25,321 bases of DNA. Source: Acidobacteriaceae bacterium. Its GTDB lineage: Bacteria; Acidobacteriota; Terriglobia; Terriglobales; Acidobacteriaceae. Position numbers and translations under genes: made by a program. The stretch lies in assembly GCA_003167305.1 (NCBI GenBank), contig PMTP01000118.1, forward strand, positions 1 through 25,321, written 5' to 3'. Each line of letters begins with the position of its first letter. The stretch's first letter is position 1. The notes below the pieces were generated by a model. That model was not told the DNA's origin. It made no database searches and saw only the letters and a list, made by a program, of their open reading frames with translations. Shown here one piece after another: positions 13,256-14,513 of this stretch.

Positions 13256-14434
13256 ATGCCTACCGCCGTTCGTTCGCACGCGAAGATCAACCTTGGCCTG
13301 GGAATCGGCGCTCCTCGCGCCGATGGCTTTCATGCGCTCTGTACTGTTTATCAGACGCTGGAGCTCTATGACGTGGTGACAGTTGCGGCGCATCCTGCTA
13401 CGGCGACCGCGTTGCGGTTGACTACGAACAACAGCCGCGTTCCCACCGACGCCCGCAACACCGCCTGGAAGATGGTGGCGCTGGCGCTGGAGGCGCTCGG
13501 GATTACCGCCGAGGTCGATATCCACATCGAAAAACGGCTACCGGTGCAGGGAGGGCTGGGAGCTGGGTCGGCCAATGCCGTGGCGGCGCTGGTGGGATTG
13601 GAAGCGGAACTGGGGATCGGAGTTCATGGTTTCCCACCCTTCGAACAAAGTAAGTTCGAAGGATGGGGCACGGAGTTCATGGTTGGAGGAGAAACCGCAG
13701 GTCCTTCGATTCCGCTGCGCTCCGCTCAGGATGACAGTGTTTTTGGAAACACTCAGGATGACAGATCGTTGTGGCCAGCGCGGCGGATGGTGATTGCCGC
13801 CCAGGTTGGCTCGGATGTGCCTCTATTCCTGATTGGAGGCGCGATTCTTGGGCTGGACCGGGGACAGCAGGTTTCTCCGCTGCCGGACTTCGAGCCGGTC
13901 TGGTGCATGGTGGCCACGCCGGAGTTGGGTGTCTCCACGCCGCAGGCTTTTCGCGACTGGGACAGGCTCTGCCTGATTGAGGGTTTGACCGCGGCGGCCA
14001 GTGCGGATAGACTAAGAGAGTTGAGCCGCGCCTATGTCAGCGCCTTTGCGGGAGCGATCCCCGAAGGACGGCCAGGAGTTGGCTCCTCCGGTGTTCTCTC
14101 CAGAGAATTGGATGAAGAGAACCTGGCCGGACCCATGGAGTCCGCGCTTGTCCGCACCGGGATTACGAGCTGGATTGTGAACGACTTTGAACGCGTCGTC
14201 TTTCCCCAGCATCCTTCCCTTGCAGAAATCAAGCGCATTCTATTGGGTTTGGGCACTCCGGAGGCAGCTCTCCATGCTTCGCTGTCCGGGTCAGGTTCAG
14301 CGCTCTTCGGGTTGTACCGAACCCGTGGAGATGCGGAAGCGGCGCGCGAACGACTGCGGCCGATGGGAGTGGCGAGTCTGCTGACCCGCACTCTGCCGCG
14401 AGCGAAGTACTGGCGCGAAATGCTTTTGCCGTAG
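13256..14434 (+). CDS. ispE: 4-diphosphocytidyl-2-C-methyl-D-erythritol kinase IspE with in-frame insert
   Basis: IspE is the GHMP-family kinase of the MEP isoprenoid pathway, phosphorylating CDP-methylerythritol. Key parts: 'AKINLGLGIGAPRADGFH' at 9-26 with catalytic K10, the glycine-rich ATP loop 'PVQGGLGAGSANAVAAL' at 96-112, 'QVGSDVPLFLIGG' at 183-195 with catalytic D187, and 'SLSGSGSALFGLY' near the end. The protein is 392 residues, well above the usual 280-310. Most of the excess is residues 122-171, coded by intergenic-type repeats between the ATP loop and the catalytic aspartate region, in frame and without a stop. Both active-site motifs are intact, so it may still work. The ATG has no Shine-Dalgarno; TACAAT lies nine bases upstream. 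It ends five bases before a tRNA gene. Confidence 0.93.
   Translation: MPTAVRSHAKINLGLGIGAPRADGFHALCTVYQTLELYDVVTVAAHPATATALRLTTNNSRVPTDARNTAWKMVALALEALGITAEVDIHIEKRLPVQGGLGAGSANAVAALVGLEAELGIGVHGFPPFEQSKFEGWGTEFMVGGETAGPSIPLRSAQDDSVFGNTQDDRSLWPARRMVIAAQVGSDVPLFLIGGAILGLDRGQQVSPLPDFEPVWCMVATPELGVSTPQAFRDWDRLCLIEGLTAAASADRLRELSRAYVSAFAGAIPEGRPGVGSSGVLSRELDEENLAGPMESALVRTGITSWIVNDFERVVFPQHPSLAEIKRILLGLGTPEAALHASLSGSGSALFGLYRTRGDAEAARERLRPMGVASLLTRTLPRAKYWREMLLP
13619..13684. repeat. REP-like hairpin inside ispE, flanked by a 13-bp direct repeat
   Basis: GGAGTTCATGGTT occurs at 13619-13631 and 13672-13684. Between and partly within lies a hairpin with arms 13633-13646 and 13654-13667, 13 of 14 positions paired, around a 7-base loop. 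The edges TGGTTTCCCA and TGGGGCAC match the intergenic element at 3788-3823. The direct repeat looks like a target duplication left by insertion. Confidence 0.75.
13701..13764. repeat. Second repeat insert in ispE (CTCAGGATGACAG type)
   Basis: CTCAGGATGACAG occurs at 13725-13737 and 13752-13764. Between them AGTGTTT (13736-13742) pairs with AAACACT (13747-13753). The left part, GTCCTTCGATTCCGCTGCGC, belongs to a dispersed repeat type I remember from many environmental bacterial genomes. It lies 16 bases after the first insert and is also translated as part of IspE. Confidence 0.65.
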
Positions 14435-14439
14435 TTTTT

Positions 14440-14513
14440 TGGGCGATCGTCTAATGGTAGGACAATGCCCTTTGGAGGCATTTGTCCAGGTTCGAATCCT
14501 GGTCGCCCAGCCA
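14440..14513 (+). tRNA. tRNA-Gln (anticodon UUG)
   Basis: A 74-base cloverleaf with encoded CCA. Acceptor arm TGGGCGA pairs with TCGCCCA, the discriminator is G73, the anticodon stem is ATGCC/GGCAT around loop CTTTGGA, which places TTG at positions 34-36, and the T arm is CCAGG-TTCGAAT-CCTGG. The weak U1-A72 pair and G73 are glutaminyl identity features. It starts five bases after the ispE stop, behind a T-run, and is probably co-transcribed with ispE and prs. Confidence 0.95.

Follow-up and report, generated by a model that had tools for sequence, protein, structure and literature searches.

Intergenic REP-like repeats in frame in a probably tolerant loop of the essential enzyme IspE in a genus of Acidobacteriaceae

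The ispE locus and its extra segment

The window, by which we mean the whole stretch of 25,321 nucleotides that was analysed, belongs to contig C28; the draft genome, that of a soil bacterium of the Acidobacteriaceae, has 2,478,023 bases in 207 contigs and is 80% complete. The open reading frame at 13256..14434 scored 138.7 bits against the ispE profile TIGR00154, whose cut-off is 138.7, and thus belongs to this family. The ispE gene is an essential gene of the MEP pathway. The features referred to below are these:

13256..14434 (+): ispE, 4-diphosphocytidyl-2-C-methyl-D-erythritol kinase, 392 amino acids, no internal stop
13619..13768 (+): extra segment, very probably repeat-derived, residues 122-171, with two multicopy repeats and a 27-bp in-frame duplication
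13619..13631 (+): first copy of a 13-bp direct repeat, conserved 5' arm of REP-A
13620..13680 (+): REP-A element
13633..13667 (+): REP-A hairpin
13672..13684 (+): second copy of the 13-bp direct repeat, 3' flank of REP-A; absent from the relative G216
13693..13737 (+): EL2 element, GCAGGTCCTTCGA..CTCAGGATGACAG
13738..13764 (+): 27-bp in-frame duplication, 9 residues, closing with the second CTCAGGATGACAG; zero, one or two copies in near relatives
14440-14513: tRNA-Gln gene, downstream of ispE

The original prediction was that two repeats of the intergenic type lie in frame within ispE, that the gene keeps a single stop-free frame and that the K10 and D187 motifs are intact. All of this was borne out: both repeats are multicopy in their own genome, the frame runs through 392 codons without a stop, and K10 and D187, which we take to be catalytic, were invariant in an alignment of 34 IspE rows. 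The core of the protein is under purifying selection, with a dN/dS of 0.12-0.20 against five relatives. The relatives that bear names and were found via IspE are mostly uncultured Acidobacteriaceae, a Terracidiphilus sp. among them. The enzyme with the insert probably works. When the whole window was searched against Rfam at the gathering threshold, the hairpin was not matched as a known RNA and the only match was to a tRNA.

A structure model of IspE of moderate confidence (mean pLDDT 68, from 34 rows) gave a pLDDT below 50 to residues 127-167 and flanked them by helices at 103-119 and 170-184. It had been suggested that residues 122-171 might form a surface loop, and the model agrees in so far as it predicts a disordered loop that joins two helices; in the cell this loop would be unstructured and exposed if the model is right. 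The earlier proposal that the insertion is tolerated is supported since it is in frame, the loop is predicted to be disordered and the core is conserved. Measured between fixed anchors the loop has 74 residues here, compared to 27 in the shortest members of the genus, 46 in G205 and 65 in G216, with which the insert is shared, so that the gain of about 50 residues given earlier depends on the relative chosen. A second low-confidence stretch is present at residues 266-309 (window 14051-14182) and it has no repeat match in any relative; thus, disorder alone is no predictor of colonisation by repeats.

The REP-A and EL2 elements

The predicted REP-like hairpin was found with 14-nt arms at 13633-13646 and 13654-13667 in which 13 of 14 positions pair (93%). 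The element that carries it matched, with an E value of 5.4e-14, a profile that was built without ispE copies. Comparison of copies showed that REP-A consists of GGTTCGTGGTTTCCCACCC, then a variable stem-loop and then GGATGGGGCAC. The stretch 13611-13690 gave at least 42 own-genome matches at E<=10, itself counted, and at least 41 at E<=0.0021, with 40 of 96 candidates scored, and this many matches excludes chance as the source of the repeat. A REP-A consensus query found matches in 75/79 genus genomes at E<=0.001. REP-A is thus a short multicopy palindrome, as a REP should be. The four bases 5' of its core, tallied at the left end of 19 copies, were GTGG in nine, ATGG in three, TTGG, GTAG and CTGG in two each and GAGG in one; the consensus at this end is therefore not the GTAG/CGTC tag.

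The second repeat was described originally as of the CTCAGGATGACAG type with its own inverted repeat, and this also holds. CTCAGGATGACAG occurs twice in the segment, at 13725-13737 and at 13752-13764, together with the inverted repeat GTGTTT/AAACAC at 13737-13752. The EL2 element matched its own profile, again made without ispE copies, with an E value of 6.7e-16, and its sequence is close to GCAGGTCCTTCGACTCCGCTGCGCTCCGCTCAGGATGACAG. With the stretch 13690-13775 there were 17 own-genome matches at E<0.01, itself counted. Hence, the own-genome search turned up further copies of both repeats. By eye, EL2 is at times nested between REP-A-like ends (L035, L037, L040). The 27-bp duplication is translated as SVFGNxQDD, of which P0004, P0001 and P0024 have 0, 1 and 2 copies, respectively. 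Among the proteins P0001-P0121 (the best 120 of 7997 matches) the loop has 37 to 120 residues, and the REP-A peptide has two forms, the flanks of which are similar.

The same loop across the genus

A match to ispE was obtained in 75 of the 80 genus genomes. G218 and G223, which have assembly gaps, and G265, in which a contig ends, were excluded from the loop counts; a frame-broken ispE in G218 or G223 was considered and rejected because of these gaps. The loop set consisted of 73 ispE sequences, 72 of the genus plus G181, and between the two conserved anchors the loop ranged from 27 to 104 residues. The loop of G181 (L062, contig C140) is identical to that of G210 (L093, contig C198), although these are of two genera; the presence of a second, different ispE in G181 makes it probable that C140 is a stray contig.

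Profiles without any ispE copy were made for REP-A (19 copies), for EL2 (10) and for REP-B (10), a second hairpin family of the form TCCCAGGTC..GACCTGGGGCAC, and were run against 76 ispE sequences (81,420 nt). Every match at E<=0.01 (36 matches) or at E<=0.1 (41 matches) was in the loop, and the single match outside it at E<=1 had an E value of 0.77. By rule-based assignment at least one of five repeat classes was present in 34/73 loops, or in 33/72 without G181. By the same rules the other 39 had no recognisable repeat and were 27 to 68 residues long; since some of these have 40-68 residues, part of the length is of other or decayed origin. Two of the five classes, tandem repeats of heptad GGGATCA units and of octamer AGCAAGTC units that were seen in further loops, are weaker. 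With up to 3 mismatches, the heptad was found in 13 loops against 3 in the reversed control and the octamer in 5 against 0, while outside the loop the counts were 2 against 2 and 0 against 1, respectively.

These repeats were also searched for genome-wide. With the REP-B query, each of eight carrier genomes had 17 to 50 matches at E<=1, ispE copies counted. Of 10 genomes, 7 had the octamer pattern, and G263 had 69 matches to it; no genome copy was found in two carriers, G251 and G235, and G228 had only one besides that in ispE. The heptad pattern was present in 9/10 genomes and the reversed control was generally lower, but in G264 the two were close (15 vs 13). The 21 ispE genes of other genera gave no match to the three profiles at E<=0.1, which is a weak test because the profiles were derived from this genus. 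The insert is in frame in a conserved gene and absent from relatives, though G216 shares it, and alignment with relatives did not reveal a conserved, non-repeat segment common to all of them.

Repeats in other genes and a candidate transposase

Beyond ispE, 51 own-genome match places, taken from 58 loci, were examined; a few of these are two parts of one element. Ten open reading frames were scanned with Pfam and three matched, of which that at L003 was not counted because the repeat is near the predicted start. Two of the 51 places, L025 and L029, are within genes in which the repeat lies between Pfam domains:

L025:829-2865, contig C173 (-): putative AddA/UvrD-like helicase-nuclease gene, REP-A and REP-B in frame, UvrD_C before and PDDEXK after
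L029:348-1937, contig C201 (-): Lnt gene, reverse REP-A in frame, LNT_N before and CN_hydrolase after
L228:1110-1622, contig C182 (-): Y1_Tnp (RAYT-like) gene, bracketed by inverted GGCACGACTTCAGTCGTGCC copies

We read the L025 gene as AddA-like. Its linker contains repeats in 5/10 genomes, namely, REP-A plus REP-B in our genome and in G205, REP-B in G214, reverse REP-A in G217 and a weaker REP-B match (E 0.0012) in G212; none was recognised in G216, G211, G224, G083 and G270. The Lnt linker has repeats in 3/10 genomes: the reverse REP-A in our genome, a REP-A-like hairpin in G217 and GGCACGACTTCAGTCGTGCC in G216. No repeat was recognised in this linker in the other 7/10 genomes, and in G224 and G212 it has only 13 residues from anchor to anchor. 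The phenomenon was first noticed in one gene of one genome; the in-frame repeats stand, and they are now seen genus-wide and in at least three genes.

Y1_Tnp is present in 78/79 genus genomes. Of the two GGCACGACTTCAGTCGTGCC copies at the Y1_Tnp gene on C182, one overlaps the 3' end of the open reading frame and one is about 40 bases upstream. GGCACGACTTCAGTCGTGCC has 27 own-genome copies at no more than 1 mismatch, and it is in frame in lnt of G216 as mentioned above. It provides the best evidence that ties an in-frame insertion to a RAYT-type transposase, but it is a repeat other than REP-A. At one of two own-genome Y1_Tnp matches no match to REP-A or EL2 was found at E<=1 in 2.7 kb; a REP-B copy (26 bits) was near the inspected gene. 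A RAYT adjoining REP-A was thus looked for and not found at the one own-genome gene inspected.

Origin of the loop repeats

In ispE the repeats occur genus-wide, in the loop only (E<=0.1), they are multicopy and of varied families, and the core around them is conserved. REP-A is present in the ispE loops in two reading phases and both orientations, with an indel in the G227 copy, and REP-B is present in both orientations. G271 has three REP-B copies in its loop and G217 has two REP-A copies in opposite orientation. In G214 (L107) we see, by eye, a hairpin in EL2 in REP-A and then a second EL2 with another hairpin, all in frame; this loop spans 97 residues between its anchors. For a core-protein tree of 70 rows, with rule-based class lists, the minimum number of changes was 10 for REP-A (12 carriers), 9 for REP-B (10), 3 for EL2 (4), 8 for the heptad (9) and 5 for the octamer (5). 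G210 was omitted from the REP-A list, its match being taken as a cross-match to REP-B ends. These counts are a guide, because the tree is modest (15/67 inner branches starred) and the changes include losses.

That modest support also leaves room for a single early repeat that was inherited, the repeats of today being its diverged descendants or products of gene conversion, with losses. REP-A and REP-B do have outer ends in common (TTTCCCA..TGGGGCAC), most forward REP-A copies have the same phase, and the right junction of EL2 is common to G000, G216 and G214. But opposite orientations, other phases and three REP-B copies in G271 cannot all come from one insert, and the heptad and octamer tandem repeats are unrelated to REPs, so we regard one ancestral insert as rather unlikely. 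No empty site with identical flanks was found for ispE, and therefore the insertion event itself is unseen. The original prediction saw evidence of movement in the direct repeat around the hairpin, which had the look of a target duplication. The exact 13-mer GGAGTTCATGGTT is indeed at 13619-13631 and 13672-13684, within a pair of 21 nt that is 90% identical, and it would suit a classical transposon or MITE insertion with target-site duplication. In 34 other own-genome REP-A copies, however, the left and right 13 bases were no more alike within a copy than across copies (5.74 vs 5.82 matches, permutation p 0.73). The left 13-mer of ispE agrees with the left ends of other copies at a mean of 8.5/13 positions, compared to 4.9 for random 13-mers of the window, and with their right ends at a mean of 6.3/13, reaching 10/13 in three copies. 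Moreover, in G216, the row closest to ours (92% over 328 core columns), the same REP-A and EL2 block is present, but REP-A has CACCCAACTTATGACT at its right end and the direct repeat is lacking. The block of repeats in the AddA-like gene seems, by eye, to replace linker sequence with no adjoining duplication. The MITE was accordingly rejected as a candidate, and a target-site duplication is very improbable for REP-A in this genome. That the elements move is supported instead by the relatives, in which this site holds other repeats or repeats in another orientation or phase.

It could also be argued that the loop repeats are retained for a function, either because an mRNA hairpin tunes translation or stability or because the peptide alters the enzyme. 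Pairing in the stem is kept despite letter differences between G000 and G216 (by eye), and the dN/dS of the loop against G216 is about 0.64 (0.166/0.261, 52 codons), which is below neutral. On the other hand, 39/73 loops have no recognisable repeat, and the carriers have unrelated repeats on both strands and in several reading phases. The stem sequence differs among REP copies anyway, so the pairing may come with the element, and retention for function is quite unlikely. Since the genome is a draft metagenome bin with the contig number and completeness given above, repeats could have been mis-joined in assembly. This is hardly credible, because the insert keeps the reading frame and because REP-A and EL2 with the 9-residue unit are also in P0003 (90% identical, JGI) and P0020 (4 contigs) and, without that unit, in P0011 (106 contigs) and the named MAG L117. 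P0002 (99% identical) was left out of this argument as it is sourceless and may be the window's own protein.

The most likely explanation, which we hold with considerable confidence, is that residues 122-171 are what is left of intergenic repeats that came to be translated within an IspE loop able to accommodate them. The REP-A hairpin and EL2 would have come to lie in frame at a connection between two helices where many stop-free sequences are acceptable. The genus is rich in REP-like elements, and most of those that enter genes are presumably removed by selection; at a few permissive sites, either loops or linkers between domains, in-frame repeats may survive, decay, duplicate and be replaced. 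The inserting agent could be a RAYT-type (Y1) transposase or template switching, and movement of REP-A may be driven by a RAYT. Finding different repeats in the same loop of related species points to stray repeats turning into protein, and we see the translated REP-like insertions described here as an ongoing turnover of repeats in an essential enzyme, at a loop that tolerates them.

Comparison with known repeat systems

The original work on Rickettsia palindromic elements (RPEs) in protein-coding genes is reportedly that of Ogata. RPEs are described as short palindromes in frame within conserved genes, presumably at sites that the fold tolerates (PMC10969869, PMC3733652), and their families are said to encode a conserved peptide (PMC10969869). 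Going by these descriptions, the ispE loop is similar in that palindromic repeats are translated in frame in a conserved gene. It differs in that one family occurs here in several phases and orientations, in that unrelated classes occupy one site and in its acidobacterial host. The constancy of phase and peptide per insertion that would be expected of RPE-like elements was not seen, as REP-A has two phases and two orientations.

Intragenic REPs of the GTAG/CGTC superfamilies, which are multicopy hairpins found also in uvrD/rep helicase and recBCD genes, are covered in PMC3733652, where flexible linkers and loops are proposed as neutral sites for REPs. Our AddA-like case resembles the genes listed there (uvrD/rep, recBCD). 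The left tag of REP-A, in contrast to these superfamilies, is GTGG in 9/19 copies and GTAG in only 2/19. As in REP/RAYT systems (Y1_Tnp, PF01797), nearly all genomes of the genus have Y1_Tnp and one such gene is bracketed by inverted GGCACGACTTCAGTCGTGCC; unlike in them, the bracketing repeat is neither REP-A nor EL2, and at the one gene inspected no link of a transposase to either was found. REPs in frame were already known (PMC3733652), and what is new, as far as the available portion of that paper goes, is that the loop of an essential enzyme is filled repeatedly by unrelated repeats; this portion gives no account of one loop being filled by different repeats across a genus. Among open-licence papers nothing was found on repeats in ispE, on such a pattern in Acidobacteria or on one enzyme loop refilled by unrelated repeats across a genus.

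Significance

The ispE loop is a replicated natural experiment in the change from non-coding repeat to protein, since a single loop in an essential enzyme can be followed over dozens of species and holds repeats of five classes, and the repeat-free relatives serve as controls. It permits measurement of the insertions that selection allows and of whether REP movement is targeted to sites or merely filtered. In this respect we suggest, tentatively, that in this genus intergenic repeats might be a standing source of linker sequence, such that particular loops of essential enzymes are repeatedly entered by REP-like elements, which nest and replace each other there so quickly that near relatives differ; the loop might even be a preferred target because of DNA structure or replication and not just a tolerant one. 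There is also a caution for annotation: in genomes of this kind, a variable segment that looks like a repeat within a conserved enzyme need not be a misannotation and may be genuine protein.

One further long open frame, at L199 (G249, contig C52), has EL2 in frame; by motif it is presumably M56/BlaR1-like.
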